Assembly (NCBI GenBank): GCA_015064355.1
Contig: SVSJ01000014.1
Coordinates: 1 to 55,990 of the forward strand
DNA: 55,990 nucleotides
Source: Oscillospiraceae bacterium
Lineage (GTDB): Bacteria > Bacillota > Clostridia > Oscillospirales > CAG-272
Direction: 5' to 3'
Made by a program: the position numbers and the translations under genes. Below the pieces are notes generated by a model. The model saw only the letters and a list, made by a program, of their open reading frames with translations, was not told where the DNA came from and ran no database searches. Shown piece after piece: positions 1 through 39,403 of the stretch (the first letter of the stretch is position 1; each line of letters begins with the position of its first letter).

Positions 1-3000
1 ACTGAGTGTGATGCGGTAACCACCGCGGCAAAGACACACGTCGACGGAGATGACAAGAACCACGTTTGTGATAACGATGGCTGTAACGTTGACAATGTAG
101 ACGGTGGTTGCTACGATACAACTCCCAAGGATCACATCTGCGACGAGTGCGGTGCAGAAAACGTAACCGAACATATCGACGGTGACGATGACAACCACCT
201 TTGTGACAACGGATGCGGTCAGGTAGCTGACGAAGGATGTCACGATGCAGATAACGACACTGATCACACTTGTGACGAATGCGGTAAGGAAAATGTGACC
301 GAACATGAGTACGGTACAGCGTCCTACACCTGGACAGAAGACGGTAAGTCTTGCACAGCAACTCGTGAGTGTAACTGCAGTGATATTCAGACAGCAACAG
401 CAAAGATCGAAAGCGAAGTTGTAAAAGAAGCAACATGTACAGCAACCGGAGACACCAAGTACACAGCAACGTTTGAAGGTGTTGAGTGGACAGCCACACA
501 GTACAAGACAGTTGAAGGCGACATTCCTGCAATTAACCACAATTGGAACACCGACGTGGCTTACGATTGGACACAGACTGATCTCAAGTGGACATGCACA
601 GCGACACGTACATGTGAAAACAGCACGGATTGCACATTGTCCATAACAGTAACTGCAGTCAAGGCAGAGAAGACTCCTGCAACATGTACAGAAAAGGGCT
701 GGAATACATACACAGCAACATTCGAGGAAGACTGGGCGACTCCCCAGACCAAGGATGTACAGGACATTCCTGTAAATGCAAATGCACACGCTTATCCCGT
801 AAGCCCAAGCGGCTATACAGATAACAAAGACGGTACTCATACTGCGTATTACGTTTGTGGAAACAACGCTGAGCATAAAAAAGAAGATGCAGCTGATTCC
901 CATACATATGAAAACGGCGAGTGCGTTTGTACCGCTGTTCAGACGTTCACAGTAACATGGATAGTTGATGGTAAAACTCACAAAACGGAATCCGTCAAAT
1001 ATGGACTAGATGCTTCTGTAATCGATGTTCCCGAAAAGACTGGTCACACCGGTATGTGGGACAAGACTGCAACGGAAGTTACTTCCGATGTAACAATTAC
1101 TGCGGTTTATACAGCTAACGAGTACTCATACACCATCGAAACCTATATTATGGATACCAACGGAAATTATGGTGATCCTACAAAAGAAACCAAAGAAGCA
1201 ACGTTTGGTGATACGGTAACTATTACACCTACCATTGATACAGGTTTCACTCTCGACAAGGGAGCAAGCACTCTTGAGATTACAATTAATACCGAGAACA
1301 ATGTTCTTAAGGTTTATATCAAGCGTAATCAGTACAAGCTTTATACAAAGGTGGATAATGGTGAAGCTGTTGAAGTAGCTACCTACTATTACGGAGAGAG
1401 CGTTACTGCTCCTGAATGTCCTGAAAAGGAAGGCTATACATTCTCCGGATGGACAGTCTCCGGATGGACAGGAGTTCCCGAAACGATGCCTGCAGAAGAT
1501 GTAACTATCAGCGGTACATTTGAGGTGAAAACTTACTCCGTAACATTCACGGTTAACGGGGCAACGTATAAAACTGTAGAATTTAAATACGGTGCTCAAG
1601 TTACTGCTCCGGAATACACAATACCCGATGGTCATACTTTCTCTGGCTGGACCCTTCCCGCAACGATGCCAGCAACTGACATCACTGTTAATGCAACCCT
1701 GAAGATCAACAGCTATACAGTAACATGGATAGTTGACGGTAAGGAAATAACCGAAGCCTATGATTACGGTGAAACACCCAAATTCGTAGGCAATACCGAT
1801 AAAGCTAAGGAAGGCTGTACAGTATATACCTTTAATGGTTGGGATAAGGAAATAGTTGCTGTAACCGAAGATGTAACTTATACGGCACAGTACACGTCCG
1901 GAATCGAACATACCTTCGGCGAAATTACTGAATACAAAGCAGCAACCTGTATGGCAGCAGGTAATGAAGCATACAAGCAGTGTACTGTATGTAAAAAGTA
2001 CTTTGCAGCAGATGCCGAAACAAACTCTACTGATGCGAAAGATCTTGCAGAGGCCTTTGTAATTCCTGTAGATGCAGATGCACACGCTTATCCCGTAAGC
2101 CCAAGCGGCTATACAGATAACAAAGACGGTACTCATACTGCGTATTACGTTTGTGGAAACAACGCTGAGCATAAAAAAGAAGATGCAGCTGTTTCCCATA
2201 CATATGAAAACGGCAAGTGCGTTTGTGGCAACAAAGCAGAGGCTATGATTGGTAGCAATTACTACTACACATTTGCAGAAGCTGTAGGGGCAGCCAATAA
2301 CGAGGAAACCGTTATTCTCCTCGAGAATATTACTCTGAATGAAGCAATTACTGTTTCGGGAAAGAGAGTGACCATTGAGGCAAACACAAACAATATCGCA
2401 ATCATAACAGCAGAAATAACGTCAAGCGACGTAAAAGGCGTATTCACCGTTACAAACAGCGGCACACTCACAGTGGGTGAGAATCTGGTTGTAAAGAGCA
2501 ACATAGCAATTCTTTATGCTAATGGTGGAACGATTAATGTTATCGGTTCAACTTTGGATTGCTCAGACCCTGCCAAAGATCTTGTATTGGTGGAAAATGG
2601 CGGTACTATCTATATTACAGGCGGTAAATTCTCGGATGATGTTACCACGTATTGTGCAGAAGGTTACCACACTGTAAAGAAGAATGACGGTGTTGACTTT
2701 GAGTATGGCGAACACAGCTACAGTGAAAACTGGACAATCAGTGAGGCAAAACACTGGCGCGCATGTGTATGCGGAGCAAAGACCGAAGAAGCAGAGCACA
2801 GTGACGTAACAACTGATGATAATCACAACTGTGACGTATGCGGTAAAGAAAACATAACCGAACACGTATACAGTGAAGGCTGGACGGTTGGTGAAACAAC
2901 ACACTGGCACGAATGTAACTGCGGAGCAAAGTCCGAAGAAACAGCTCACAGTGACGTAGATACCGACACCAATCACGGCTGTGACGTATGCGGCAGGGTA

Positions 3001-6000
3001 GGAGTAACTGTTCACACTTACACAAAGGTTGTTACAGCTCCTACATGTACAGAACAGGGATACACAACATACACATGTAACTGTGGTCATACATATACCG
3101 ATAACAAGGTTTCAGCACTCGGTCACAGCTACATTGGTGTAGGAACTGCTCCGACCTGTACAGAGAAGGGCTATACCACTTATACGTGTTCTGTCTGTGG
3201 TGACAGTTATACGGACGATGAAAAAGACGCCCTCGGTCACAAAGAAGTAATCGACAAAGCAGTAGATCCTACATGTACCGAAACGGGACTTACCCAAGGC
3301 TCGCATTGCTTGGTATGTAATGAAGTTTTCGTTAAACAGGAAACTGTTGCAGCTCTCGGTCACAACTGGGGAGATGCAACCTACAGCTTTGCAAAAGATG
3401 GATCTTCTTGCACAGCAACTCGCGTATGCGGTAATGACTCCGCTCACGTAGAGGAAGCAACTGCAACGATCACAAGCGCAGAGAAGACACCTGCAACATG
3501 TACAGAAAAGGGCTGGAATACATACACAGCAACCTTTACTGAAGCATGGGCGGCTCCCCAGGCCAAGGATGTTCAGGACATTCCTGCAATCAACCACGAC
3601 TGGGCAGACGCAACCTACGACTTTGCAGCTGACGGAAAGAGTTGCACAGCAACTCGCGTATGCGGTAATGACTCCGCTCACGTAGAGGAAGCAACTGCAA
3701 CGATCACAAGCGCAGTGAAGACCCCTGCAACATGTACAGAAAAGGGCTGGACAACATACACAGCAACCTTTACTGAAACATGGACAGAAACCAAGACCAA
3801 GGATGTTCAGGACATTCCTGCCAAGGGACACACCGAAGTGACCGACAAGGCGGTAGCTCCTACATGTACCGAAACCGGTCTTACAGAAGGTAAGCACTGT
3901 GGCGTATGTGGTGAAGTACTTGTAGCACAAACGGTAGTCGATGCACTCGGTCACACCGAAGTAATCGACGAAGCTAAGGCTCCTACATGTACCGAAACCG
4001 GTCTTACAGAAGGTAAGCACTGCTCTGTATGTGATACAACAACAGTAGCTCAAACAGTAGTCGATGCTCTCGGTCACATAGACGATAACACCGACCATAT
4101 CTGTGACCGCAACTGCGGAAAGACAGATATGAACATGGATAAGCATGTTGACTCCGACACGAATCACACATGTGACTACGGCTGTTCTGTAGCAATCGGC
4201 ACACACGCAGACGGCGACATGGACCATGACTGTGACTACTGTGGTGTAGTGGACTATGTGGAATTTGGCCCATGTGCCGACGGTGCAAACGACGGCGACC
4301 ACGTATGTGATTACGGATGCAAAAAGATACTGACCAAATGTGGTGACGAAGGCAAGGATCACGTTTGTGATACCGACAGCGCATGTGATGAATACAGAAC
4401 TGGCAACAATGCATGTGCCGACAAGGCTGACGACGGCGATCACGTATGTGATTACGGATGCAAAAAGATACTGACCACATGCGGCGACAGTGACACGAAT
4501 CACACATGTGACACCGACAGCGTATGTGATGAATACAGAACCGGTAATAACGCATGTGCCGACAAGGCTGATGATGGCGACCATGTATGTGATTACGGAT
4601 GCGGAGCAACCAAGACCATATGCGGTGACATCAATCCTAAGGATCACGTATGTGACACCGATAGCGCATGTAAAGTATACAGCACCGGCAATAATGCACA
4701 CGCCGACGGCGACGACAACAATCACCTTTGTGATTACGGATGCGGTAAGATAGCCGATGAAGGCTGTTATGATGCAGACAATGACGGCAATCACAAGTGT
4801 GACGAGTGTGGTGAGGACGGAGTAACAGAACACACCTACACCTCCGTTGTAACTGCTCCTACCTGTACGGCTGAAGGTTATACAACCCATACTTGCTCGG
4901 AATGTGGAGACAAGTATACCGATGGTAAGACAGACGCTCTTGGTCACAAGTATGATTCTGTAGTAACCAATCCCACTTGTACGGTTGGCGGTCATACAAC
5001 TCATACTTGCTCGGTATGTAAGCACTCTTATACCGATACTACAACAGCAGCCCTCGGTCATAGCTATGGTGAAGTTACATTCAGCTGGAGTGCAGATAAT
5101 TCAAAGTGTACTGCTACCCGCGGATGTATCAGATGTACAGACACCAATACTCAGACAGTAGATTCTACTTCTGCAATCACCACTGAGGCAACATGTACAG
5201 ATAAGCAGGTAACAACTTACACTGCTGTGTTTACTGCTGAGTGGATTTCCAACAAGACACAGACCAAGGATGTTGTAGGCGATATTGCAGAGAACAACCA
5301 TACACAGAATTATACGTATACAGACAATAAAAACGGCACTCATACAAAGATTTATCCGTGTTGTAAAGCGAATATTGAGGAAGGCCATACCTATACTAAC
5401 GGTGTGTGCGTATGTACCAATGTTCAGACATTCACTATAACATGGGTAAACGGCAAAACCACAACAACCACGACTGTGGAATATGGCAAAGTTCCTGAAG
5501 TACCTGGCACGGACAAGATCGGAGAGCTTAAAAAGGCTCCTGAAAAAGGCGGACACTACACCTTTGCGGGCTGGGGTACGGTCGTTGCGGCTTATGATAA
5601 CGCGACATATACTGCAGTTTATAGCATAGCAGAGCATAATTACAAATATGACTGTGTACAATGTTATGTATGTAACTATGAGGACGATACAAATGACCAC
5701 ACAACATCAGGTAATGCTACTTGCGTAGAAGATTCTATCTGTACAAAATGTGGAAAGATACTCGAGGGCAGAATGGGCCATTTGTTTACGTATAGTACAA
5801 CGTCGAGCCATTGGTCTATTAATGAAGCCGGCAACCATGTGTATTATTTTGTGGCAACTTGTACTCGTGAAGATAGTTGTGATGCGACTGATGAAGTGGT
5901 TGTAGTTGCAGTACAACAGGCAGAAGGGTATAAGGCTCCTACATGTACTGATGACGGAAGTGCAAAGTACAAAGCTACCATTCCGTCCAATGTTGAAAAG

Positions 6001-9000
6001 TCTTGGGTAAAGACACTGTTGCAGAGCGGATTCGGCGTAGTCAGCGAAGTATTTGCTATTGATAAACTGGGTCATGATTTGACTGAAACACCTGCTCAGG
6101 CGGCAACATGTACAGAAGAAGGTACACATGGATATTGGACCTGCGGCACATGCTACAAAGTATTTGAAGATGAAGCAGCAACAATCCAAACCACTGTTGA
6201 AGCACGGAAACGCCCTGCGTTAGGACACGATTGGAAATGTACAGTAGGCGGAGGAGAAACTCTTATCTGTAGTCGTGGCTGTGGAGCATCGACAACGGAA
6301 GACATCGAAACCGCTCACATCTGGGTTCATGCGGATGCAACTCCTGCCACTTGTACAGAACCGGGATTCCGTTCCGGAAATACGTGCAGCGTGTGTGGTA
6401 AAGAAGTTGGCGGAGGAGAAATCCCTGCTCTTGGCCACAGCTACGGTGAGACTTCCTATACATGGACACAGTATGAAAATGAATGGTTCTGTACAGCAAC
6501 ACGTAGTTGTACGAGAGACGGCTGTACTCATACTGAAACTGATACTGCAACTGCAAATTCTGAAGTAACGACAGAGTCCACCTGTACCGTAAAAGGCTGG
6601 ACCACCTACACCGCAACATTTGATGTTGAGTGGGCTATCGAAAAGGTTCAGACATTGCAGGATGTAGAGTTGGCAGAACATACTCCCGATGCAGGAATCA
6701 TTACAAAATCGCCGTTCTATAATAAGACCGGTGTGAGAACATTCTATTGTACCGAGTGCGGAGTAGAGACGGGCACGGCGGTTGTGCCTGCTACAGACAA
6801 GATCCATATCTCTGTTTTAGGCGACAGTATTACAGCATTTGAGAACTATTCAAACGGTACAGCGAATCTGACTACCAACAACACTTTGGGAAACGGTAGA
6901 GTATGGTTCCCGATGAATAAAGGATATGACTCCGAATATCAACCCATTACCATTCCTGGCGAAATTCAGAAGGCAGAGCATATCTGGATCTATAAGGCAG
7001 CTGAAAAGCTGGGTGCCAATATCCTTGTAAACAACTCCTGGTCGGGAAGTGCTGTACATTTCTGGCAGTTTGAGTGTCCCGGTATGTGGCAGAACCGTGT
7101 GGTTCAGCTCCACGATAATACCGGAGAAAACAACGGTCAGGAACCCGATATCATCGTTGTCTACATGGGTACCAATGACTTTAAGTACACAGAAAAAGTC
7201 AATGGAAGTTATGCACAACTTGAGGATAAGTCGTATTACCAGTCACAGCTTGGAAGCTATGAAGCAGCAATAGAAAAATATAATACATTGATTCAAGATG
7301 GCGCAGAGCCTCAAAACGCCATGGAAGCTTATCTTATCTCCTTCTATAAGATGAAAGAGAGATATCCGGACTCTGAGATCTACGTAATGACGCTGCTCCC
7401 CTTCAAATCAACCGCGGCGCAGGGTCAGCCGACTGAGTTTAATGAAGATCTCAAACTGATGGCAAAACACTTTGGTTTGCATGTGATTAATATCGAAAAC
7501 ACCGGTATTGTGCCAAACAACTTCAAATACCTGATGGAAGACTGGTTGCATCCCAATATCAAGGGTATGGAAGTTCTTGCAAACGCAGTTGAATCTGCAA
7601 TTCGTAAGAATAGCAAGCTGTACACAGATAATTATGTAGATGTTTCCTACACTCTTGATGGCGTAACCGCTATGGAAGGTACGACTCGTGTTGTTGTAAG
7701 TGGTGAAGACTTCGATGCAAGCCTCAAGCTTAATGATCAGACCCTTACTATGCAGGTAGAAGTTCTTATGGGTGGCTATCCCATTCCTGAGAACTGCATT
7801 ACCGTGGCAGATGATGCAAAGCTCGGCGGTAAGATAGTCAATATCCACATTGACAACGTTACCGAGGATATCGTAATTACAGCGAAGGCTCATGCACATG
7901 AGTACACCTCTGTTGTAAAAGATCCTACTTGTACCGAAAAGGGCTACACCACATACACTTGCGGATGCGGTCACACCTATACGGCGAACGAAGTAGACGC
8001 TAAGGGTCATAGTTACACAGTGATTTCTGAAGAGTTGGCGAAAGCTGCTACTTGTATAGAAAACGCTACATACTATGCAATGTGTGAACATTGCGGAGAT
8101 GTACATGCTACCGAGACGTTTGAAGATGAAAACTCCAAGCTGGGTCATAGTTTCAATAATAAGGCTTCCGAGACAGAAGCATCTCCGGCTACATGTACAG
8201 ATCCTGCGAGATATTATGTACAGTGCGACCGTTGTGAAGTGTATACCAACGACAAGACTATTGCTGTAGGTGAAGCACTTGGTCACGACTACGCAGATGC
8301 AACCTATGATTGGCAGTATGATGCTACTAATAAAGTTTGGATTTGCACCGCTAAACATGTGTGCTCCAATGACGGCAGCCATGTTGAAACTGCAAAAGCA
8401 ACAGTAAGTTCCGTTGTAACAACAGAAGCTACCTGTACCGAAAAGGGCTGGACAACCTACACTGCAAACTTTGAAGCAGAGTGGGCTGTTGACGGTCAAA
8501 CTAAGGACGTGGAAGACATTGCCGCATTGGGTCATGCATATGGTGAGACATCCTATGAATGGTCGAATGGCAATGGAAACTGCACCGCTACGCGAGTGTG
8601 CTCCCACGACGCAAGCCATGTTGAAACACTAGAAGCAACTGTAAACTCCGTTGTAACAACAGAAGCTAAATGTACAGAAAAGGGTCTGAGAACATACACA
8701 GCAACCTTTGTTGGAACTTGGGCAACAGAGCAGACTACAACTGCGGATATTCCCGCCAAGGGTCATACCGAGGAGACGATCCCCGCAGTGGCTGCAACCT
8801 GTACTGAAACCGGTCTTACCGTGGGAACTAAATGTTCCGTTTGTGGCGTAGTTCTGGTTGAACAGGATACAGTCAATGCGCTTGGCCACGATGAAGTTGC
8901 TCACGAAGCAAAGGCACCGACCTGCACAGAAAAGGGCTGGGATGCATACGTAACCTGCTCGAGATGCGACTACACAACGTACGTTGAGAAGGGAGCTCTT

Positions 9001-12000: not shown

Positions 12001-15000
12001 CATGCATGGAGCGTAACCTATAACTTTGCGGCTGATGGATCTTCTTGCACAGCAACTCGCGTATGCGGTAATGATGCAGCACACGTAGAGACGGCAAATG
12101 CAGAGATCACAAGCAAGGTTGTTAAAGCAGCGACATGCACAGAAACAGGTAACACTCAGTACATAGCAACATTCACCGAAGATTGGGCAAAGACCCAGTA
12201 CAAGACGGTTGAAGGTAACATTGCTGCAACCGGCCACGCATGGAGCGTAACTTACAACTTTGCAGCAGATGGAAAGAGCTGCACGGCGACACGTGTATGT
12301 ACGCGTGATGCAAAACACGTAGAAACAGCAAATGCAGAGATCACAAGCGAAGTTGTAAAAGAAGCAACATGTACAGGAAATGGTGACACCAAGTACACAG
12401 CAACGTTCTCTGAAGACTGGACAGAAACTCAGTACAAGACGGTTAAAGGCGACGTTGCTGCAACCGGCCACGACTGGGCAGACGCAACCTACAGCTTTGC
12501 GGATAATGGAAAGAGTTGCACAGCAACTCGCGTATGTAAGAATGATGCAAAACACGTAGAGACAGCAAATGCAAAGATCACAAGCGCAGTGAAGACTCCT
12601 GCAACATGTACAGAAAAGGGCTGGACAACATACACAGCAACCTTTACTGAAACATGGGCAGCTATCCAGACCAAGGATGTACAGGACATTTCTGCAATCA
12701 ACCACGACTGGGCAGAAGCAACCTACAGCTTTGCAGAAGATGGATCAGCTTGCACAGCAACTCGTGTATGTAAGAATGATGCAACACACGTAGAGACAGC
12801 AACTGCAGAGATCACAAACGCAGTGAAGATCCCTGCAACATGTACAGAAAAGGGCTGGACGACATACACGGCAACCTTTACTGAAACATGGGCAGCTATC
12901 CAGACCAAGGATGTTCAGAACATTCCTGCTAAGGGCCATAGCTATAACGCAGTAGTAACAGCACCGCTGTGTACTGATAAAGGATACACAACACATACTT
13001 GCTCCAAGTGCGGTGACAGTTATATTGATAATGAAGTTCCAGCAACGGGTGTTCATTATGTCACTATGGTTCACGGTGCTTATCAATGTCCCACCTGTGG
13101 TGGAGCGGATAGTAGCAACGTAGCATTTATTGGACAATACGGAGACAATGATTTCTGGAAACTTAAGAATGGTGTGTTAACGATCTATCCAGCTGAAAGT
13201 GTAACAAACGCCAATCACGATGAATCCTGGATATTTGATTCTATTGGAACATATTCTTCGTGGTATAGTGTATATGAAAGCTTTGAATTCAATTATCATG
13301 TAGAACTTCCTGAGCTCCACACAGTGATCATTGAACCTGGTATTACACACATAATGGATGAAACTTTCAGCTATGCTAGTATTATTACAGAAGTTATTAT
13401 TCCTGATACGGTTGTAAGTATTGGTAACTATGCGTTTGCATGGTGCCAGAATCTGATAACTGTACATATTCCAGATAGTGTTACCACAATCGGAGAAGGT
13501 GCATTCCAAGGTTGCGATAAATTGACAAGCATTACTATCCCTAAGAGCGTTGAAAGTATTGCAACCAATAGCATTGCAGTCGACGCATTTTGGTATTGTG
13601 ACAGTCTAGCAAGTATTTGGGTCGATAAAGAGAATATTCACTATTCTAGTGATGAAGCAGGTGTGCTATATAATAAGGATAAGTCTGTACTTATGTTGCT
13701 GCCTCCTGCCTTTGAGGGAGAATATATAATTCCTGATGGTGTTACAGAGATTGCTAACCATGCAATTGGCGGTGCATCAGCCGGATGTTCAAATGTAACT
13801 AAGATTGTAATTCCTGCTAGTGTTACAAGAATCGGATATGGAATGTTCTATGGTTGTGATAATCTTGAGACTGTAGTTTACTGCGGTACCGAAGAACAAT
13901 GGAATAGCATTGTTGTGGAAACCGAGTATATTGCTCAAGTGCAGTATCACATGTATGGAGATTGGGATGTTGTTACAAGCCCTTCCTGCCAAGAAAGTGG
14001 TTTGAAGCAACGTGTATGTAAGTATTGCAACAATATTGATGTTCAGGACATTCCTGCAATTAACCACGACTGGGCAGACGCAACCTACGACTTTGCAGAA
14101 GATGGATCTTCTTGCACAGCAACTCGCGTATGTAAGAATGATGCAAAACACGTAGAGACAGCAAATGCAAAGATCACAAGCGCAGTGAAGACTCCTGCAA
14201 CATGTACAGTAGATGGTTGGACGACATACACGGCAACCTTTACTGAAACATGGGCAGAAACCCAGACCAAGGATGTTCAGGACATTCCTGCAATTAACCA
14301 CGACTGGGCAGACGCAACCTACGACTTTGCAGAAGATGGATCTTCTTGCACAGCAACTCGCGTATGTAAGAATGATGCAAAACACGTAGAGACAGCAACT
14401 GCAACGATCACAAGCGCAGTGAAGACCCCTGCAACATGTACAGTAGATGGTTGGACGACATACACAGCAACGTTCTCCGAAGACTGGGCAGCTATCCAGA
14501 CCAAGGATGTTCAGGACATTCCTGCAACTGACCACAAGTGGAACAGCGACGTGGCTTACGATTGGAATAAGGATGGAGTCAAGTGGACATGCACAGCAAC
14601 CCGTACTTGTGCAAACAGCACGGACTGCACATTGACTGAAACAGTAACTGCAGAGAATGCAGAGAAGACTCCTGCAACATGTACAGAAAAGGGCTGGAAT
14701 ACATATACAGCAACCTTTACTGAAGCATGGGCAACCACACAGACTCAGGATGTACAGGACATTCCTGCTAAGGGTCATACTCCCGGCGAAATTGTTGTGG
14801 AAAATGCAGAAAATCCCAATTGTACTATTGACGGAAGCCATGATAATGTGGTATACTGTGTTATTGAAGATTGTAAAGCAGAAATCAGTCGCGTGACGGT
14901 TGTTGATCCTGCAACAGGACACACCGAAGTGATCGACGAAGCTGTAGCTCCTACATGTACCGAGACAGGTCTTACAGAAGGTAAGCACTGCTCCGTATGT

Positions 15001-15543
15001 AACGAAGTACTCGTAGCACAGGAAACCGTAGACGCCCTCGGACATAAATACGTTGATAACGTATGTTCAGTATGTGGCGAATGCGGCGGCTTTACAGTAA
15101 ACTTCAAGGGTAATACATTAGAAAATGTATTCACAATAGACAAGCAGGTTATCACAGTAACTTACCCCATAGCATGCCGCGTAGGCTATATGGATAACGG
15201 AAGTTACGTTGATCTCCTGGCTACCGAAAACGGTACAAACACCTACAGCTTCACAGTTCCTACATATGTAACTGAAGTGATTCTGGTAGTTGCAGGTGAC
15301 ATTAACGGCGACGGAATTCTTAACTACAAGGATAAGGATTCTTACGAAGACGTTATTCTCGCCTCCTTCACAGGTCAAAACTCCGGCCTTGAAGCATGGC
15401 AGATTTTCGCAGCAGATATAAACGGCGACAAAGCAATTGACCTTGTTGACGTAATTCTGTTTGCACGAAGCATGGTTCAAAATCATCCTACAATTACGAC
15501 CCTGCCGATTACATGGCGCGACGTTGTTGTAGCTAATTATTAA
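1..15543 (+). CDS. Giant cysteine-rich repeat surface protein with SGNH hydrolase, beta-helix, LRR and C-terminal dockerin (5' partial)
   Basis: The frame is open from base 1, so the start and any signal peptide lie upstream; over 5,180 codons are visible. Most of the protein is interleaved repeats: units of about 78 residues (SCTATRVC ... PATCTEKGW ... DVQDIP), units of about 37-41 residues (APTCTETGLTEGKHCSVC; GYTTYTCSVCGDSY) and Asp-rich DHVCDYGC units (1-300 and 4090-4815). Embedded segments are InlB-like beta repeats (940-1905), two beta-helix-like segments (2240-2700, 10380-11200), an SGNH/GDSL hydrolase (6796-7620), BspA-type leucine-rich repeats (13290-13910) and a C-terminal type I dockerin (15298-15490). 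It is probably a secreted protein displayed through cohesin-dockerin binding. The next gene starts 23 bases downstream with a strong RBS, so the three genes look like one operon. Its biological role is not recognisable. The many Cys residues (C-x-x-C pairs) are unusual for an extracellular Firmicutes protein. Confidence 0.93.
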   Translation, partial: TECDAVTTAAKTHVDGDDKNHVCDNDGCNVDNVDGGCYDTTPKDHICDECGAENVTEHIDGDDDNHLCDNGCGQVADEGCHDADNDTDHTCDECGKENVTEHEYGTASYTWTEDGKSCTATRECNCSDIQTATAKIESEVVKEATCTATGDTKYTATFEGVEWTATQYKTVEGDIPAINHNWNTDVAYDWTQTDLKWTCTATRTCENSTDCTLSITVTAVKAEKTPATCTEKGWNTYTATFEEDWATPQTKDVQDIPVNANAHAYPVSPSGYTDNKDGTHTAYYVCGNNAEHKKEDAADSHTYENGECVCTAVQTFTVTWIVDGKTHKTESVKYGLDASVIDVPEKTGHTGMWDKTATEVTSDVTITAVYTANEYSYTIETYIMDTNGNYGDPTKETKEATFGDTVTITPTIDTGFTLDKGASTLEITINTENNVLKVYIKRNQYKLYTKVDNGEAVEVATYYYGESVTAPECPEKEGYTFSGWTVSGWTGVPETMPAEDVTISGTFEVKTYSVTFTVNGATYKTVEFKYGAQVTAPEYTIPDGHTFSGWTLPATMPATDITVNATLKINSYTVTWIVDGKEITEAYDYGETPKFVGNTDKAKEGCTVYTFNGWDKEIVAVTEDVTYTAQYTSGIEHTFGEITEYKAATCMAAGNEAYKQCTVCKKYFAADAETNSTDAKDLAEAFVIPVDADAHAYPVSPSGYTDNKDGTHTAYYVCGNNAEHKKEDAAVSHTYENGKCVCGNKAEAMIGSNYYYTFAEAVGAANNEETVILLENITLNEAITVSGKRVTIEANTNNIAIITAEITSSDVKGVFTVTNSGTLTVGENLVVKSNIAILYANGGTINVIGSTLDCSDPAKDLVLVENGGTIYITGGKFSDDVTTYCAEGYHTVKKNDGVDFEYGEHSYSENWTISEAKHWRACVCGAKTEEAEHSDVTTDDNHNCDVCGKENITEHVYSEGWTVGETTHWHECNCGAKSEETAHSDVDTDTNHGCDVCGRVGVTVHTYTKVVTAPTCTEQGYTTYTCNCGHTYTDNKVSALGHSYIGVGTAPTCTEKGYTTYTCSVCGDSYTDDEKDALGHKEVIDKAVDPTCTETGLTQGSHCLVCNEVFVKQETVAALGHNWGDATYSFAKDGSSCTATRVCGNDSAHVEEATATITSAEKTPATCTEKGWNTYTATFTEAWAAPQAKDVQDIPAINHDWADATYDFAADGKSCTATRVCGNDSAHVEEATATITSAVKTPATCTEKGWTTYTATFTETWTETKTKDVQDIPAKGHTEVTDKAVAPTCTETGLTEGKHCGVCGEVLVAQTVVDALGHTEVIDEAKAPTCTETGLTEGKHCSVCDTTTVAQTVVDALGHIDDNTDHICDRNCGKTDMNMDKHVDSDTNHTCDYGCSVAIGTHADGDMDHDCDYCGVVDYVEFGPCADGANDGDHVCDYGCKKILTKCGDEGKDHVCDTDSACDEYRTGNNACADKADDGDHVCDYGCKKILTTCGDSDTNHTCDTDSVCDEYRTGNNACADKADDGDHVCDYGCGATKTICGDINPKDHVCDTDSACKVYSTGNNAHADGDDNNHLCDYGCGKIADEGCYDADNDGNHKCDECGEDGVTEHTYTSVVTAPTCTAEGYTTHTCSECGDKYTDGKTDALGHKYDSVVTNPTCTVGGHTTHTCSVCKHSYTDTTTAALGHSYGEVTFSWSADNSKCTATRGCIRCTDTNTQTVDSTSAITTEATCTDKQVTTYTAVFTAEWISNKTQTKDVVGDIAENNHTQNYTYTDNKNGTHTKIYPCCKANIEEGHTYTNGVCVCTNVQTFTITWVNGKTTTTTTVEYGKVPEVPGTDKIGELKKAPEKGGHYTFAGWGTVVAAYDNATYTAVYSIAEHNYKYDCVQCYVCNYEDDTNDHTTSGNATCVEDSICTKCGKILEGRMGHLFTYSTTSSHWSINEAGNHVYYFVATCTREDSCDATDEVVVVAVQQAEGYKAPTCTDDGSAKYKATIPSNVEKSWVKTLLQSGFGVVSEVFAIDKLGHDLTETPAQAATCTEEGTHGYWTCGTCYKVFEDEAATIQTTVEARKRPALGHDWKCTVGGGETLICSRGCGASTTEDIETAHIWVHADATPATCTEPGFRSGNTCSVCGKEVGGGEIPALGHSYGETSYTWTQYENEWFCTATRSCTRDGCTHTETDTATANSEVTTESTCTVKGWTTYTATFDVEWAIEKVQTLQDVELAEHTPDAGIITKSPFYNKTGVRTFYCTECGVETGTAVVPATDKIHISVLGDSITAFENYSNGTANLTTNNTLGNGRVWFPMNKGYDSEYQPITIPGEIQKAEHIWIYKAAEKLGANILVNNSWSGSAVHFWQFECPGMWQNRVVQLHDNTGENNGQEPDIIVVYMGTNDFKYTEKVNGSYAQLEDKSYYQSQLGSYEAAIEKYNTLIQDGAEPQNAMEAYLISFYKMKERYPDSEIYVMTLLPFKSTAAQGQPTEFNEDLKLMAKHFGLHVINIENTGIVPNNFKYLMEDWLHPNIKGMEVLANAVESAIRKNSKLYTDNYVDVSYTLDGVTAMEGTTRVVVSGEDFDASLKLNDQTLTMQVEVLMGGYPIPENCITVADDAKLGGKIVNIHIDNVTEDIVITAKAHAHEYTSVVKDPTCTEKGYTTYTCGCGHTYTANEVDAKGHSYTVISEELAKAATCIENATYYAMCEHCGDVHATETFEDENSKLGHSFNNKASETEASPATCTDPARYYVQCDRCEVYTNDKTIAVGEALGHDYADATYDWQYDATNKVWICTAKHVCSNDGSHVETAKATVSSVVTTEATCTEKGWTTYTANFEAEWAVDGQTKDVEDIAALGHAYGETSYEWSNGNGNCTATRVCSHDASHVETLEATVNSVVTTEAKCTEKGLRTYTATFVGTWATEQTTTADIPAKGHTEETIPAVAATCTETGLTVGTKCSVCGVVLVEQDTVNALGHDEVAHEAKAPTCTEKGWDAYVTCSRCDYTTYVEKGALGHKMTKTDAKVATCTEPGNNEYYTCDRCNGVFKDEAGENVTTVAKETIKAKGHDIATVAAKAATCTEKGWNAYEYCKVCDYTTYSEIGALGHNTTLTAAKAATCTATGNNEYYTCNRCNGVFKDKDGTVATNVAAETIAATGHKYDTGVVTTAPTCTEQGVKTFTCQNDESHTYTEKIDPLGHAPEKVEAKAPTCTEPGYKEHYKCSRKNCGVLFLDEAGTLTTTEAALVVDAKGHTNETIPAVAATCTTPGLTAGTKCSVCGVTLVEQTVVAAKGHTEVVDAVKAPTCTATGLTEGKHCSVCGVTLVAQETVDKLGHSYVAVVTAPTCTKGGYTTYTCSTCKDSYIANETSSLGHTLVIDEAVNPTCTTTGLTMGKHCSRCNEVLLAQTVVAATGHSYEGVVTAPTCTEQGYTTYTCSNCKGSYVHNYVDAKGHQYDDDFDKDCNRNCGAENPNFKILVAMIGSKKFDSLYAALDVVRSGETIVLYEDVSLTEAITITNNVTIKANTNATITANGVVDAFTVTAGGNLTLSKGLTVNSNTSILWANGGTINVDGASLVAANSPYAVVFVENSGVINVKSGEISGSGTNNVTISASGGTVNISGGVVESANSSAVAAKNNAIVNISGGEVKSTCADPSYCAVYAGLGGTVNVTGGKVNSEAGTGLVAVTGGTVKVRAGTVDGVVAHEASTAKAEISGGNITGKAYTRDGATLTVSGGTFVNDVTEYCDNTHHTALRNDVYVYENCVVNRTVRENEIAPEVDGDTGSYETVGYCACGHELSRVKTQTNLVKDTFEEQDAQDIIENIVQPGTTVEGNTAVEKLENVITDAAVKEEKITEVIEKNPLVSVEDVQSELHDVTLEYYDDKNKKWTKADEEHFPESGVIEIILPVPSDTNHEQYTYFVAHMFTTGEKAGQIEYPTVYEVVIDGQQFIKFSVTGLSPMVVNYLKTDPCALGDTEGVAVVENKVDATCTEDGNYDSVVYCTVCKKELSRENKTISATGHAWSVTYNFAADGSSCTATRVCGNDAAHVETANAEITSKVVKAATCTETGNTQYIATFTEDWAKTQYKTVEGNIAATGHAWSVTYNFAADGKSCTATRVCTRDAKHVETANAEITSEVVKEATCTGNGDTKYTATFSEDWTETQYKTVKGDVAATGHDWADATYSFADNGKSCTATRVCKNDAKHVETANAKITSAVKTPATCTEKGWTTYTATFTETWAAIQTKDVQDISAINHDWAEATYSFAEDGSACTATRVCKNDATHVETATAEITNAVKIPATCTEKGWTTYTATFTETWAAIQTKDVQNIPAKGHSYNAVVTAPLCTDKGYTTHTCSKCGDSYIDNEVPATGVHYVTMVHGAYQCPTCGGADSSNVAFIGQYGDNDFWKLKNGVLTIYPAESVTNANHDESWIFDSIGTYSSWYSVYESFEFNYHVELPELHTVIIEPGITHIMDETFSYASIITEVIIPDTVVSIGNYAFAWCQNLITVHIPDSVTTIGEGAFQGCDKLTSITIPKSVESIATNSIAVDAFWYCDSLASIWVDKENIHYSSDEAGVLYNKDKSVLMLLPPAFEGEYIIPDGVTEIANHAIGGASAGCSNVTKIVIPASVTRIGYGMFYGCDNLETVVYCGTEEQWNSIVVETEYIAQVQYHMYGDWDVVTSPSCQESGLKQRVCKYCNNIDVQDIPAINHDWADATYDFAEDGSSCTATRVCKNDAKHVETANAKITSAVKTPATCTVDGWTTYTATFTETWAETQTKDVQDIPAINHDWADATYDFAEDGSSCTATRVCKNDAKHVETATATITSAVKTPATCTVDGWTTYTATFSEDWAAIQTKDVQDIPATDHKWNSDVAYDWNKDGVKWTCTATRTCANSTDCTLTETVTAENAEKTPATCTEKGWNTYTATFTEAWATTQTQDVQDIPAKGHTPGEIVVENAENPNCTIDGSHDNVVYCVIEDCKAEISRVTVVDPATGHTEVIDEAVAPTCTETGLTEGKHCSVCNEVLVAQETVDALGHKYVDNVCSVCGECGGFTVNFKGNTLENVFTIDKQVITVTYPIACRVGYMDNGSYVDLLATENGTNTYSFTVPTYVTEVILVVAGDINGDGILNYKDKDSYEDVILASFTGQNSGLEAWQIFAADINGDKAIDLVDVILFARSMVQNHPTITTLPITWRDVVVANY
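782..930 (+). repeat. In-frame direct repeat copy 1 (partner 2078-2226)
   Basis: About 149 bases are nearly identical to 2078-2226, at an offset of 1,296 bases (432 codons, so in frame). Only a few substitutions are seen. The segment encodes the HAYPVSPSGYTDNKDGTH ... CGNNAEHKKEDAA unit. Near-identity at DNA level points to recent duplication or gene conversion within the giant gene. Confidence 0.9.
2078..2226 (+). repeat. In-frame direct repeat copy 2 (partner 782-930)
   Basis: Second copy of the 149-base in-frame repeat. It follows the InlB-like segment, as copy 1 precedes it, so the two copies bracket the 933-2070 region. Recombination between them would remove 432 codons without a frameshift. 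Confidence 0.9.
6796..7620 (+). other. SGNH/GDSL hydrolase domain inside the giant protein
   Basis: The translated segment has block I LGDSIT (Ser codon 6826-6828), a block III-like MGTND (Asn/Asp codons just after 7171) and the C-terminal DWLHPN (Asp codon 7540-7542, His codon 7549-7551), giving the Asp-x-x-His pair. These are the SGNH catalytic signatures, so the domain is probably an active esterase or lipase-type enzyme, for example a carbohydrate deacetylase. The substrate is unknown. A beta-sandwich-like stretch of about 90 residues follows (7621-7890). The surrounding repeats have no enzymatic signature. Confidence 0.85.
10381..11235 (+). other. Right-handed beta-helix-like segment inside the giant protein
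   Basis: The segment begins AMIGSKKFDSLYAALDVV and continues with short iterated strands of the type GGTVNISGGVV, NNAIVNISGGEV and GGTVNVTGGKV. These resemble the rungs of pectate-lyase-like parallel beta-helices. A shorter, homologous segment lies at 2240-2700 (AMIGSNYYYTFAEAVGAA ... NGGTIYITGGKF). No catalytic residues can be assigned, so it may be structural or carbohydrate-binding. Confidence 0.7.
13290..13910 (+). other. BspA-type leucine-rich repeat segment inside the giant protein
   Basis: It encodes several copies of the pattern I-P-D-S-V-T-T-I-G-x-x-A-F-x-x-C-x-x-L, for example IPDTVVSIGNYAFAWCQNL followed by IPDSVTTIGEGAFQGCDKL. This is the LRR_5/BspA signature of surface adhesins. 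The segment interrupts the cysteine-repeat region and has a different base and codon texture (more AT-rich), which suggests a separate origin. Confidence 0.85.
14041..14508 (+). repeat. Tandem 234-bp repeat (2 units) in the giant gene
   Basis: Units 14041-14274 and 14275-14508 are each 234 bases (78 codons) and nearly identical over their first half. They encode the DWADATYDFAEDGSSCTATR ... VQDIP module. Similar but more diverged units occur at about 3361-3830 and 12001-12950. This shows the 78-residue unit of the type A repeat and recent tandem expansion. Confidence 0.9.
15298..15490 (+). other. Type I dockerin domain at the C terminus of the giant protein
   Basis: Two calcium-loop repeats are visible: D-I-N-G-D-G-I-L-N-Y-K-D from 15298 and D-I-N-G-D-K-A-I-D-L-V-D from 15415. 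Both keep acidic or Asn residues at loop positions 1, 3, 5 and 12, each followed by a hydrophobic helix. Dockerins bind cohesins; the next two genes both encode cohesin-like domains. Confidence 0.9.
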
Positions 15544-15566
15544 AAAACAAGGAGGAACTACATACA

Positions 15567-16271
15567 ATGAGGACAAAGCTTATTAAAGTGGTTTCATTAC
15601 TGTTAGCAATTTCATTGTTAACAATAGCCGCAACCGTGGTTGCCACAGCTTCTGAAGAAACTGCTCCATTCACGCTTGTAAGCAGCGAAGTTCAGGCTGG
15701 AAAAGTAACGATCAGCGTTACGAGCACGAGCGATCGCTATGCAGTGCAGGGAACATTCAGCGTGAGTGATGAGAATTTTGAACTTGAATCAATCAGCGTC
15801 GAAGCATATGATGCACCTAAGGGAGAGGAGATCAGCGACTTAATAATCGAAGATCCAACTTCCGGTAAGGTTTCGTGGGCTGACCTCAATTTCGATAGTA
15901 ATGGTGAAGTGATTGTCACAGCGACTTATAAAGTCGCTGATGACATCACCCCCGGCGACTACACCCTGTCATTCGCACTGGATGCTTACGGTGACGAAAA
16001 TGGTAACCCTGTCAGGTATACCGGTGGCGCTCTTACAACAACAGTTACGATCGCTGACGAGTCTGCAGGTCTCAAGGGTGACGTTGATTTGGATGGTAAG
16101 GTTGGTTCAGGTGACGTTACCCGCTTGCTTGAACATGTAGCAGGAATTCAGGACTTAACTGATCCTGTAGCGATTTCAAATGGCGAGGTTACTGGAGATG
16201 GAGAATTGAGTTCAGCAGATGTTACTAAGATTCTCGAATATGTTGCGGGTATCATTTCAAGTTTAAACTAA
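15567..16271 (+). CDS. Secreted cohesin-like plus dockerin adaptor protein
   Basis: 234 residues. There is a signal peptide at about 1-28 (basic start, hydrophobic LLLAISLLTIAATVVATA core), then a beta-rich cohesin-like domain at about 33-162 (FTLVSSEVQAGKVTISV ... GDYTLSFALDAYGDENG). A type I dockerin follows at about 170-232. Its first calcium loop (172-183) is canonical DxDxDG. The second (207-218) has Glu and Thr at positions 1 and 3 and may bind calcium poorly. The RBS is AAGGAGGAA. It lies 23 bases after the giant gene and about 20 before the next, so it is very likely co-transcribed. A protein with both partner modules could link the dockerin of the giant protein to another cohesin. 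The cohesin call rests on fold pattern only and is less certain than the dockerin. Confidence 0.82.
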   Translation: MRTKLIKVVSLLLAISLLTIAATVVATASEETAPFTLVSSEVQAGKVTISVTSTSDRYAVQGTFSVSDENFELESISVEAYDAPKGEEISDLIIEDPTSGKVSWADLNFDSNGEVIVTATYKVADDITPGDYTLSFALDAYGDENGNPVRYTGGALTTTVTIADESAGLKGDVDLDGKVGSGDVTRLLEHVAGIQDLTDPVAISNGEVTGDGELSSADVTKILEYVAGIISSLN

Positions 16272-16292
16272 TATCATAGGAGGATTATGATA

Positions 16293-19200
16293 ATGAAATT
16301 TCTTAAAAATCTTCTTCCTCTCATTCTTTGCATAGCTATGGTTTTGTCATTTGCTTCAGTAACCGTATATGGTGCTGGTGGTAGTACAAATGTAGCTGTT
16401 TCTGCAAGCAAGAGCGAAGTTAACGTCGGAGACACGTTTACTGTTACACTCGAATATTCAGCGATGACAGTAAAAACATTTACTGCCGGTGTGAAATTTG
16501 ACAATAATCTTGTTGAATGTATTTCGATGGAAGCATGCGATCCTGAATATCCCGACGATTTTGGCCTTTGCACAAAACGCGGATTCACGCAGGGAAGCAT
16601 ATCTACCATAGCCCAGGCCAACCAAAATTCAAAAATCGGCTTTGGCGTTGCAAGCACAGACGATATTAGTTATAAGGCTTGTACCATTTTCATTGCAACA
16701 TTCAAGGCATTAAAGTCTGGAACTGCTAATTTTACTTCTTACGAAGACAGCGATGGTACCGATGCGTTTGTATCGACTAACATTGACACTGTTTCCGTAA
16801 CAATCAAGGGTGCTTCCGAACCCGAGTGTAACCACGAAGGCAAGACATACACTTATGAAGCCAACAATGACGGTACTCACAAGGTAATTTGCTCTTGCGG
16901 TGAAACCGTAGAAGCGGATGAACCTTGTGATATCAACAAGTCTACAAAGGAGTGTTACGACTGCGGAGCAGCTTGCTTGCACCTTCATTTTGCTGCATCC
17001 AGTGTTAAATATGATTACAATGGTAACGGCACACATATATACAAGGTATTATGTAACTACTGTAATGATTGGGGCGTAAAGGACGCTGCACAGGCTTGCG
17101 AAGATGCAAACGGTGACGGTGCTTGTGATCTTTGCGGCGGTAACAACACTGCTCACACCCACTCTTTCACAACGGTTTCTGGTACTCCTGCTACATGTAC
17201 TAATTATGGTACAAAGGACTACTACGTATGCTCCTGCGGCTACTATGCTGATGCAGAAGGCAATGTGAAAATCGGTGATACAATCGGTGCTGTTAATACT
17301 TGGTTGAGCACCAGCGGCGATAACGGTGGCTTGATTGAGAAAGAAGACCACGGTTATAACCTTGGGTTTCGTTATACTAGCGACGGTGCTGATACTAATA
17401 CTCATACTAAGTATTGTAAAGATTGTGGTGAAGCGATCGAAGGCGAAAAGAACATAGCTTGCGAAGACGCTTCCGGTGATAACAACCACGCTTGTGATGC
17501 AAATTGTGGCAATACAAGTGTAACCGCTCATACTCCTGAATCTGATGACGGCGACTGCACAACTCCTGTTCTGTGTACCGAATGTGGCACAGAGACAACT
17601 GCAGCAAAGACACACGTTGCAGGTGAAGATGACGGCGACTGTACAACTCCTGTTAAGTGTGTAAACTGCTCCAAGAACGCAATTGAAGCAAAGACACACG
17701 CAGATGCTGAAAACGACGACGACCACATCTGTGATAATGATGGATGTAATATTGAGTGCAGCACTCACACCGGCGGCACAGCAACTTGTGTAATACAGGC
17801 TGTATGTACAGAGTGTGGTAAGAGCTACGGCGAACTTGATCCTGCCAACCATATAGCGACCGAGGATCCTTTCTACGAAAATAACGGAGATGGTACACAT
17901 AAGTTTTGGATTGGCTGTTGGCAATGTGACACAAAGCTTAACCTGATGAAAGAGAATGATCCTTGCATTGATAGTTATGATAATGATGGCAAGTGCGATT
18001 GCTGCGGTGCTGTAATGCACACTTGCACTCTCACTCACGTAGAGGCAAAGGCTGCTACATGTTCTGCTACAGGTAACATAGAGTACTGGTACTGCTCAGA
18101 CGAAACATGCGGCAAGTATTACAGCGATGCAAATGGTGAAAATGAAATTACCGACAAGACTTCCGTAACAATTCCTGTTGATGCGAACAACCATGGTAAA
18201 ACCAAAGGGTTTCGTCTTGATGATAATGGCGACGGTACTCATTCTAAGCGTTGTAATGATTGTGATTCGCTGGTTAAGATCGATGGCGAAGATAAAGTAA
18301 ACCACATCTGCGACCACAATAATCATGTTTGTGAGTGCGGCGCAAAGGTTCCCGTTTATGTTGTTATTACCGATTATAATGACTTTGATAGCAAGCTGAG
18401 CGATCTGGTTCAGCTTACCGATGAGGATAATGACGGCAGATACACTGCTACTGTCATTTTGAAGAAGAAAACTATTGCTAACGCTAATGGCAATATAGAT
18501 TTCTATGTTTGCCATGCAGACGGTACGAAATGTGATGCACATCCCGGCGCTTATTTCCATATTGATAATTCTGATTATAGAAATCTCGTAGCTAAATTTG
18601 AGTATATCATCAATGAAAACGGTGAAAATGTATTTGGGCTTCTCGAAACCAGTTGTATGCATACCTACGATAATGACTATAAGTATGAAGACAACAAAGA
18701 TGGCAGCACACACACCGTTAAGTATTCTTGCTGTGGCCAGATGACCGACGACAGTATTAAACAACACGACTACACCACAGACGAAGATCCTTACACATGT
18801 ATCTGCGGTGCTAAGTTCACCGGTTGGGAAAACAAGTGCTACATTAAGGATGCAGTGATTCTTAAGGGCTGGAACGAGATCGAAGGCAACTGGTACTACC
18901 TTGATTCCACCACCGGCGTTCGCGCTGAAGGCCTCACAAGAGTTCCTTATCCCGAGACTGCAATCAACGGTGTAACTTATGCTCCTAACGCTGAAGACGT
19001 GACATACCACGCTAACAAGGAAATTGCATTCGAGGATGCAGATGAAGCTTGGTTCGTATTCGGTGAGGACGGTAAGTTCCAGAACAACAAGACCGGTCTT
19101 GAAAATGGCAAGTACATCGAAAACGGTATGATCGCATGGCACCCCGGTTTTGTAAATGTTGGCGGCACATGGTACTACTTCGTAGCTGATACTAATAACG

Positions 19201-19955
19201 GCGGTAACAAGTTTGCACAGGGCCAGATCTACGTTACAAGAAATGCTGAGGCTGCTGGCTACAAGAGTGGCGATCAGCTCGTATTCAAGGACGGTAAGGT
19301 TGATACTACTGTAAATGGCATCATTGATGGCTACTACTACATTAGCGGTCAGCTCGTAGTTGGTGAGGGCCTTGTTAAGCTTGACGGCAGCAAGTACATC
19401 TTTGTTCGTTCCGCAGGTCAGCTTGCTATAGGTGATTACTGGGTAACACCCGATAAGGCTAACGGTATTGTTGAAGGCGGCATGCTCTACAACTTTGGTG
19501 CTGACGGTTACCTGACAATCGATCCTACCAAGAATGGTATAGTTGATGGCACCTACTACAAGGAAGGCGTTCCTTACTATGCAGGTCTCATCGAGATCGA
19601 CGGTGAAACATATTACGTTAAGTCCAACGGCGAAATCGCTAAGGGCTGGTACTACGTAACAAAGACCAATGGTATCGAACTTGAAACCAACAAGCTCTTC
19701 TTCGACGAAGAAGGTAAGATGGTTGAACTCAAGAACGGTATCCATGAAGGCACTGATGGTAAGCTGTACTACTATGTTAACGGCGAGGCTACCGGCGTAG
19801 GTCTCATCGAAATCGACGGTGACATCTACTACGTAAGAACTACCAACGGTGAAGTTGTAACAGGTACTTACTATATTGCAGCGACAAACGGAATCGAAGG
19901 CTTCGAAAATGGTGATAAACTCACATTCGGCGCTGACGGTAAGCTTGTTAAATAA
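16293..19955 (+). CDS. Secreted cohesin-like, cysteine-repeat and wall-binding-repeat protein (candidate anchor scaffold)
   Basis: 1,220 residues from ATG 16293, which sits 9 bases after GGAGG; the in-frame ATG at 16287 is only 3 bases from it. Signal peptide about 1-28. A cohesin-like domain lies at about 30-172 (SKSEVNVGDTFTVTLEYS ... CTIFIATFKALKSGTANF). Cysteine repeats of the same style as the giant protein span about 180-680. A separate domain with DEDNDGRYTATVIL lies at about 686-785, and Tyr/Trp/Gly-rich repeats (GWNEIEGNWYYLDSTTG, GLIEIDGETYYVKSNGEIAK GWYY-type) span about 856-1220. The last class resembles choline- or glucan-binding cell-wall repeats, which attach proteins non-covalently to the wall. 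The protein could therefore be the cell-attached cohesin partner. A strong terminator follows. Confidence 0.85.
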   Translation: MKFLKNLLPLILCIAMVLSFASVTVYGAGGSTNVAVSASKSEVNVGDTFTVTLEYSAMTVKTFTAGVKFDNNLVECISMEACDPEYPDDFGLCTKRGFTQGSISTIAQANQNSKIGFGVASTDDISYKACTIFIATFKALKSGTANFTSYEDSDGTDAFVSTNIDTVSVTIKGASEPECNHEGKTYTYEANNDGTHKVICSCGETVEADEPCDINKSTKECYDCGAACLHLHFAASSVKYDYNGNGTHIYKVLCNYCNDWGVKDAAQACEDANGDGACDLCGGNNTAHTHSFTTVSGTPATCTNYGTKDYYVCSCGYYADAEGNVKIGDTIGAVNTWLSTSGDNGGLIEKEDHGYNLGFRYTSDGADTNTHTKYCKDCGEAIEGEKNIACEDASGDNNHACDANCGNTSVTAHTPESDDGDCTTPVLCTECGTETTAAKTHVAGEDDGDCTTPVKCVNCSKNAIEAKTHADAENDDDHICDNDGCNIECSTHTGGTATCVIQAVCTECGKSYGELDPANHIATEDPFYENNGDGTHKFWIGCWQCDTKLNLMKENDPCIDSYDNDGKCDCCGAVMHTCTLTHVEAKAATCSATGNIEYWYCSDETCGKYYSDANGENEITDKTSVTIPVDANNHGKTKGFRLDDNGDGTHSKRCNDCDSLVKIDGEDKVNHICDHNNHVCECGAKVPVYVVITDYNDFDSKLSDLVQLTDEDNDGRYTATVILKKKTIANANGNIDFYVCHADGTKCDAHPGAYFHIDNSDYRNLVAKFEYIINENGENVFGLLETSCMHTYDNDYKYEDNKDGSTHTVKYSCCGQMTDDSIKQHDYTTDEDPYTCICGAKFTGWENKCYIKDAVILKGWNEIEGNWYYLDSTTGVRAEGLTRVPYPETAINGVTYAPNAEDVTYHANKEIAFEDADEAWFVFGEDGKFQNNKTGLENGKYIENGMIAWHPGFVNVGGTWYYFVADTNNGGNKFAQGQIYVTRNAEAAGYKSGDQLVFKDGKVDTTVNGIIDGYYYISGQLVVGEGLVKLDGSKYIFVRSAGQLAIGDYWVTPDKANGIVEGGMLYNFGADGYLTIDPTKNGIVDGTYYKEGVPYYAGLIEIDGETYYVKSNGEIAKGWYYVTKTNGIELETNKLFFDEEGKMVELKNGIHEGTDGKLYYYVNGEATGVGLIEIDGDIYYVRTTNGEVVTGTYYIAATNGIEGFENGDKLTFGADGKLVK

Positions 19956-19963
19956 GCGAAACT

Positions 19964-20020
19964 AAAAGACAATCGAGCGGACGCTCTGCCGTAGGGCGAG
20001 GGCGTCCGCTGTCTTTTATT
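19964..20020 (+). terminator. Terminator of the cohesin/dockerin operon
   Basis: Stem GCGGACGC (19977-19984) pairs with GCGTCCGC (20002-20009), flanked by AAAAGAC/GTCTTTT which extends the stem. It ends in a T-rich tail directly after the last gene of the operon. Confidence 0.9.
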
Positions 20021-20082: not shown

Positions 20083-20114
20083 AGTTTTAAATATTATAGA
20101 GATTGGTTAGAACG

Positions 20115-39253: not shown

Positions 39254-39340
39254 GCAGAAGGAGAGATTTGAACTCTCGCGCCGGTTACCCGACCTACACC
39301 CTTAGCAGGGGCGCCTCTTCGGCCTCTTGAGTACTTCTGC
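39253..39340 (-). tRNA. tRNA-Ser (GCU anticodon)
   Basis: 88 bases on the minus strand. The acceptor arms GCAGAAG and CTTCTGC pair fully. D arm CTC...GAG, anticodon arm CGCCC-CTGCTAA-GGGTG with anticodon GCT, a long variable arm (class II tRNA) and T arm GAGAG-TTCAAAT-CTCTC are all present. CCA is not encoded. It reads AGC/AGU serine codons. Confidence 0.95.
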
Positions 39341-39403
39341 GTACCAAGTATTCGTCCAAAATTGAACGGCGAATGCGGCTTTGTCATCACATTCAGCCTG
39401 TAT

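Follow-up and report, generated by a model that had tools for sequence, protein, structure and literature searches.

The window analysed here, 55,990 bases, is the entire contig C6 of a draft Oscillospiraceae genome (G000; 2.17 Mb, 57 contigs, 79.9% complete), and it opens with three plus-strand open reading frames (ORFs) in tandem, the first of them open at the contig start. They encode a giant cysteine-repeat protein (gene 1), a putative adaptor (gene 2) and a putative anchoring scaffoldin (gene 3). We consider it somewhat probable that the three products form a cohesin-dockerin-assembled surface chain, leading from the giant through gene 2 and gene 3 to the cell surface. The secreted giant would bind, through its C-terminal type-B dockerin, the one cohesin that gene 2 has; gene 2 would in turn bind, through its type-A dockerin, the one cohesin of gene 3, and the C-terminal repeats of gene 3 would hold the complex on the cell surface or wall, perhaps on a phosphate-substituted polysaccharide from the neighbouring cluster (a guess). 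Gene order would then mirror assembly order. We infer both pairings, the polysaccharide ligand and the biological role from gene content, domain assignments and recurrence. In related genomes the block recurs after surface-polysaccharide clusters, which goes beyond what the original prediction, made from this stretch of DNA alone, had in view; its observation is confirmed, and its interpretation as a whole is partly supported.

That prediction described three adjacent genes with gaps of 23 and 21 bases, strong ribosome-binding sites and one terminator, and took them for a single operon. Gap 1 spans 15544-15566 (23 bases), with AAGGAGG preceding ATG 15567. The start region of gene 3 after AGGAGG reads ATGATAATG, which makes ATG 16293 a likelier start than 16287 and sets gap 2 at 21 bases. 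Gaps and ribosome sites were thereby borne out, and together they support an operon-like block. The terminator stands in part: a long stem with a T-run can be seen by eye after gene 3, but the automatic scan finds only a portion of it, and terminator-like sites between 14500 and 20300 occur at chance level (5, vs a mean of 4.5 in shuffles). As the window is the whole contig, the start of the giant and anything upstream of it are unseen.

The N-terminal domain of gene 3 is assigned as a cohesin from profile and fold comparison. Its own sequence gives 11.5 bits with the cohesin model PF00963 (E 0.34, not significant), and a single-sequence search of PDB sequences returned one row at E 0.98. Orthologues score 25.4, 26.0 and 47.2 bits (cut-off 24.1), with the G142 copy under it at 17.7 bits, and 14 of the 15 rows found by the profile in the PDB are scaffoldin chains. 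The domain models as a cohesin fold, its nearest matches being the Clostridium perfringens structures 2vo8, 2w1n and 2jh2. The N-terminal domain of gene 2 is probably a cohesin as well: the top four rows of its profile against PDB sequences are scaffoldin chains (4.6e-4 to 1.5e-3), a ScaB cohesin of Ruminococcus flavefaciens being the nearest. A poorly aligning sequence (L137) was left out of the profile alignment (A6); with gene 2 as a single sequence, the dockerin region alone matched (16 rows). The claim of two cohesin-like domains hence stands for gene 3, while for gene 2, with its moderate profile and mixed fold matches, it is probable only.

Dockerins had been proposed on genes 1 and 2, and both are supported. 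The gene 2 dockerin gives 22.1 bits with PF00404 in one scan (cut-off 22.9) and 25.5 bits, over the cut-off, in another. Pfam leaves the dockerin uncalled in the G000 giant; orthologous giants score 32.0, 31.1 and 22.3 bits (the last under the 22.9 cut-off), and the C-terminal stretches of the G000 giant and of these orthologues align. Sequence comparison places the C-terminal dockerins of genes 1 and 2 in different types. Within G000, G142 and G143 the gene 2 dockerin matches the cargo dockerins with normalised alignment scores of 0.09-0.20, while gene 2 dockerins match the other type-A rows with means of 0.43-0.49. A tree of 14 dockerins falls into two loose groups with none of 11 inner branches starred and with long branches meeting; typing rests on the pairwise scores, not on this tree, and G135 is an exception. 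A small domain before the dockerin is common to type-B cargoes.

We regard gene 3 as a putative anchoring scaffoldin because its relatives swap the tail around a conserved cohesin. Wall-binding repeats had been proposed on gene 3, with the protein as the wall anchor. The repeats are over the cut-off in G000 (PF19127), whereas in G142 and G135 the choline-type repeats reach 24.5 and 22.6 bits (cut-off 27). The relatives in G017, G186 and G386 carry SLH domains instead (84.1, 60.3 and 116.1 bits), those in G007, G138 and G128 have hydrophobic tails by eye, and in G075 no anchor is visible. This exchange of the surface module supports an anchoring role.

A search with the gene 3 N-terminus in 196 genomes of the family, drawn from a larger group, gave matches in 10. 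In six of these (G000, G142, G143, G017, G186 and G075) the gene immediately upstream, on the same strand, encodes a dockerin. The trio itself was found again: full orthologous blocks exist in G142, G143 and G135, the last reached via the C terminus of the giant, and G099 holds an analogue made of a transglutaminase-dockerin protein, a cohesin-dockerin adaptor (cohesin 23.0 bits, just under the cut-off) and an SLH protein. A type-B-dockerin protein directly precedes a gene-2-type domain in G000, G142, G143 and G011, and in G017 a GDSL-dockerin protein stands directly before the anchor. Stretches from G013, G088 and G045 were left out of the comparison.

The cargo had been called mostly repeat rather than glycosidase, and this agrees with the partial giant, in which the Pfam scan finds no glycosidase domain. 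What it does contain is InlB-type and leucine-rich repeats, a GDSL esterase-type domain and, as much of the remainder outside Pfam domains, cysteine repeats (238 Cys in 5180 residues). A profile trained on relatives counts 43 copies of the main repeat, unit I, in the whole partial giant. Its core is Cys, 7-14 residues and Cys-x2-Cys, and no Pfam family was called on it in scans of the G000 giant and the orthologous giants. Within ~10-32 residues the core is followed by Gly/Asn-His, or the same with one residue between, in 21/21 units of G000, 41/41 of G142, 10/16 of G143 and 21/22 of G135. The resulting 93 of 100 compares with 14-24% once the sequences of the four giants are shuffled, for a pattern that was picked after the repeats had been inspected and in units that have common descent. 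After the Cys cores of gene 3 itself it occurs once in three. The Cys3-His signature looks like a metal site, possibly of zinc type. Since a long extracellular repeat protein, with GDSL esterase-type, leucine-rich and InlB-type parts, makes up most of the cargo, a cell coat or an adhesive or editing layer is the likely role, rather than fibre digestion.

The surroundings of the block point the same way as far as gene content goes. In G142 it is preceded by a capsule-type cluster, with genes for Wzz, CpsB/CapC, LytR-CpsA-Psr, a sugar transferase and three glycosyltransferases (Pfam), together with a polymerase-like membrane protein (by eye, no Pfam match) and a LicD-family gene. G143 and G135 show the same gene order, read by eye from the sequences, with LicD at 119 and 131 bits; LicD lies ~7-8 kb upstream of the giant. 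After the cluster all three genomes encode a further cargo with a phosphodiester-glycosidase (NAGPA) domain (L134:1118-5416, L135:6592-10983 and L146:3-3344 in G142, G143 and G135). Pfam recognises the dockerin of this cargo in G142 and G143, and the end of the giant matches it in G135. Downstream of gene 3 the window encodes a polysaccharide flippase sharing 63% identity with the one that follows gene 3 in G142; this similarity suggests that the end of the same cluster has been retained in the window. Of 13 genomes searched, only G142, G143, G135 and G007 gave a LicD match, and the four SLH-anchor genomes (G099, G017, G186 and G386) gave none; as a base rate, LicD occurs in 50 of 196 genomes across the family. 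A bolder extension, which we hold tentatively and find possible rather than probable, is that these plugs serve to build and not to digest. A polysaccharide locus would then also encode the protein layer attached to its product: two cargoes (the NAGPA protein and the giant, whose Cys3-His repeats would bind metal) and an adaptor and an anchor with one cohesin each, the anchor gripping the polymer that the locus makes, or carrying SLH domains instead where this polymer is absent. Beside this, an Lgt-family (prolipoprotein diacylglyceryl transferase) gene was seen directly before the giant in G143 (L135:11089-11772) and G135 (L137:13098-13799), and directly before a large dockerin protein in G011 (L153:8588-9298).

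Several observations weigh against the proposed chain. For gene 2, Pfam gives no cohesin (PF00963) match to the N-terminal domain, the fold model is modest (predicted local distance difference test 66.6, predicted template modelling score (pTM) 0.64) and by fold alone pilin and adhesin Ig-like domains match as well as cohesins do. The second EF loop of its dockerin is degenerate at the calcium positions. The gene 2 N-domain of G135 is likewise not recognised as a cohesin by the Pfam scan, and the G135 gene 2 dockerin is not of type A (0.24 vs 0.20). Other Ig-like domains lie within 1 Z of cohesins in the fold match of gene 3. A single-chain model of gene 2 with the gene 3 cohesin yielded folded domains, a pTM of 0.42 and no interface read-out. 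As the two genes lie in one frame, the gene 2 stop TAA was read as Gly in this model, giving mature gene 2, a short spacer, the gene 3 signal peptide and the gene 3 cohesin; L063, whose cohesin had aligned to gene 3, was left out of the folding alignment (A4). With the joined model as query, the best Foldseek matches were to long Ig-like adhesins that run across both domains at a root-mean-square deviation of ~15 or more; these were set aside as chain-level artefacts.

Further points of this kind come from the relatives. Four of the 10 genomes (G057, G007, G138 and G128) show no separate upstream dockerin gene: in G057 cohesin and dockerin sit in one protein, and in the other three Pfam called no dockerin among the neighbours scanned. 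The adaptor place in G186 holds a dockerin alone, with no cohesin seen; Pfam sees no cohesin in the SLH anchor of G099, whose assignment rests on position and reading by eye; and in G143 the choline-type repeats of gene 3 were likewise read by eye, with no Pfam choline-repeat match. In G156 a repeat protein has a C-terminal dockerin (22.8 bits, cut-off 22.9), and the genes after it encode a pyruvyl transferase and a hexapeptide transferase; neither an adaptor nor an anchor follows. As to the polysaccharide, LicD also occurs in G007, whose gene 3 relative has a hydrophobic tail. The association of LicD with the repeats (3/3 vs 0/4) is not one of independent cases, the three LicD clusters being orthologous and closer to one observation. 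Neither LicD nor the NAGPA cargo was found in the assembled part of the G000 genome; a query with this cargo returned the giant's own C terminus and three NAGPA-stretch matches in shorter frames (C23, C44 and C45), none taken as an orthologue. Phosphocholine looked a strong candidate for the ligand from the LicD neighbours, but choline kinase is over the cut-off in none of nine genomes, with two matches below it in G143 and G099; the ligand therefore need not be phosphocholine.

The same modules could be wired differently. The gene 3 cohesin might take dockerin proteins directly, with gene 2 and others as parallel cargoes, while the N-terminal domain of gene 2 would be an Ig-like adhesive or carbohydrate-facing module and the giant would bind another cohesin, for instance one on contig C1. 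The dockerin-only protein in the place of gene 2 in G186, the GDSL-dockerin protein next to the anchor in G017, the mixed fold matches of the gene 2 domain and the two other cohesin-like proteins on C1 (one below the cut-off, one by eye) all fit such an arrangement. We nevertheless consider it unlikely, as scaffoldin cohesins head the PDB matches of the gene 2 profile and a type-B-dockerin protein precedes the gene-2-type domain in each of the four genomes named above. The modules might also have lost binding to each other and serve ordinary surface proteins, neighbours by chance, as calcium-stabilised end caps and Ig-like spacers. Such a reading would agree with the degenerate calcium loop of the gene 2 dockerin and with how common Ig-like folds are in surface proteins. 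It appears quite improbable given that cohesin and dockerin genes adjoin in six of 10 genomes while the anchors differ.

It is very improbable, in our view, that the block is just the anchoring branch of an ordinary degradative complex (a cellulosome, an amylosome or a mucinolysome), with enzymes encoded elsewhere docking onto it. Dockerin places do exist on contigs C1, C16 and C30, one such protein having a phosphodiesterase/sulfatase-like and a lectin-like domain, and the mucinolysomes of gut Limousia use a wall-anchored cohesin protein (PMC12997984). Against this, no glycosidase domain occurs in the partial giant or in the seven proteins at or beside the dockerin places, which carry phosphodiesterase/sulfatase-like, lectin-like, leucine-rich, SLH or unassigned domains; no dockerin-bearing glycosidase is present among the proteins scanned of this 79.9% complete genome. 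Genome-wide, PF00963 has two isolated matches, both below the cut-off, though this model misses gene 2 as well. Genes 2 and 3 each have one cohesin as read from their sequences, and the block thereby lacks a feature that defines a cellulosome, a scaffoldin with several cohesins.

Cohesin-dockerin pairs have been studied mostly as fibre- or mucin-degrading machinery. The ScaE protein of R. flavefaciens is held on the cell by sortase, and in organisms of the Streptococcus pneumoniae type choline-binding surface proteins go with LicD. With the latter the block has in common the C-terminal choline-binding-type repeats, a LicD-family gene near the relatives' blocks and the flippase; it differs in the choline kinase result and in having the repeats on a cohesin protein. 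The closest folds to the gene 3 cohesin are the non-cellulosomal cohesins of C. perfringens, of which 2vo8 and 2w1n come, by their structure titles, from glycoside hydrolases themselves, unlike gene 3. In R. flavefaciens the ScaA/ScaB/ScaC/ScaE system (PMC5429695, PMC5934362) comprises cargo, a cohesin and dockerin adaptor and a cell-surface cohesin protein, with distinct dockerin groups for each step. The proposed chain resembles that of strain FD-1, the cargo dockerin going to the adaptor cohesin and the adaptor dockerin to the surface cohesin (a pairing that we infer here), and gene 2 is nearest to the ScaB cohesin by profile. It differs in having one cohesin per protein, a giant repeat protein as its cargo and choline-type repeats on its anchor, and, in relatives, in its position after a surface-polysaccharide cluster. 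The Limousia mucinolysome (PMC12997984) likewise concerns gut bacteria with a cohesin-dockerin complex and a cell-wall cohesin protein, and is unlike the block in its mucin-degrading glycosidases, multi-cohesin scaffoldins and sortase-type anchor; 'choline' occurs 0 times in the main text of that paper. Paenibacillus guangzhouensis has monovalent cohesin-dockerin adaptors with the potential to dock to anchors at the surface, but these often carry glycosidases, the anchors are of SLH type and no giant cargo is described in section 15 of the source (PMC11557425).

The layout had been called unrecognised. Its cargo-adaptor-anchor logic was already known from R. flavefaciens; what is new here is a giant repeat protein as cargo, an anchor with choline-type repeats and the setting in a polysaccharide locus. 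Among the matches listed from the open-access literature, none mentions in its title or at the beginning of its abstract a cohesin-dockerin system encoded within a locus for polysaccharide synthesis, subscription papers falling mostly outside that scope. If the proposed chain is correct, a compact three-protein set would show the same plug serving cell-coat architecture. The block is small enough for pair-by-pair expression and testing, may offer orthogonal cohesin-dockerin pairs and is a handle on the attachment of a very large repeat protein.

Table 1. Features of the three-gene block and its downstream flank (window positions).
Feature	Position	Strand	Basis or remark
Gene 1, giant cysteine-repeat protein	1..15543	+	5180 residues, 5' end missing (contig edge)
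List_Bact/InlB-type repeat, best stretch	1354..1506	+	PF09479, 41.2 bits, E 1.8e-10
Unit-I repeat span (Cys, Cys-x2-Cys, then Gly-His)	3046..15045	+	24 regex matches
GDSL-type lipase/acylhydrolase domain within gene 1	6814..7590	+	PF00657, PF13472, both over cut-off
BspA-type leucine-rich repeats, best stretch	13345..13629	+	PF13306, 101 bits
Small domain beside giant's dockerin (X-like, name by analogy)	15118..15297	+	common to other dockerin cargoes
Type-B dockerin, giant's C terminus	15298..15480, limits approximate	+	pair of dockerin-type EF loops; alignment to orthologues
Gene 2, putative adaptor	15567..16271	+	234 residues
Probable cohesin domain, gene 2	15651..16064	+	profile search of PDB sequences; fold model
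Type-A dockerin, gene 2	16074..16241	+	PF00404
Gene 3, putative anchoring scaffoldin	16293..19955 (ORF-list start 16287)	+	1222 residues (from 16287); 16293 better spaced from ribosome site
Cohesin domain, gene 3	16380..16814	+	profile and fold
Choline-binding-type (cell-wall-binding) repeats, gene 3	18867..19952, limits approximate	+	PF19127 36.7 bits, PF01473 31.7 bits, both over cut-off
Probable terminator, long stem-loop with T-run after gene 3	19964..20017	+	by eye; automatic scan gives a partial match
Polysaccharide flippase	20103..21593	+	63% identical to flippase after gene 3 in G142

NCBIfam gave nothing over the cut-off on gene 2, gene 3 or window positions 1-7800 of the giant, and Rfam at gathering scores no family within the window. 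A tRNA-Ser (gct) gene lies at 39252-39341 on the minus strand. Of the cohesin-like proteins on contig C1, one (L065:1849-3891; 20.1 bits, under the cut-off) has a dockerin-like stretch and leucine-rich repeats, and the other (L066:5183-6994, by eye) has cysteine repeats and a hydrophobic tail. An order-level search matched 21 of 394 genomes at E <= 0.001. Stretches from six were inspected, of which G386 alone was used; G512, G427, G319, G253 and G477 were left out as weak or partial matches. In G386, of another family in the same order, three paralogues of the gene 3 cohesin occur at 6731-12612 of L098 (contig C50), carried by an SLH protein, a Big_2-dockerin protein and a frame running into a masked stretch, and a two-cohesin SLH protein sits between them.

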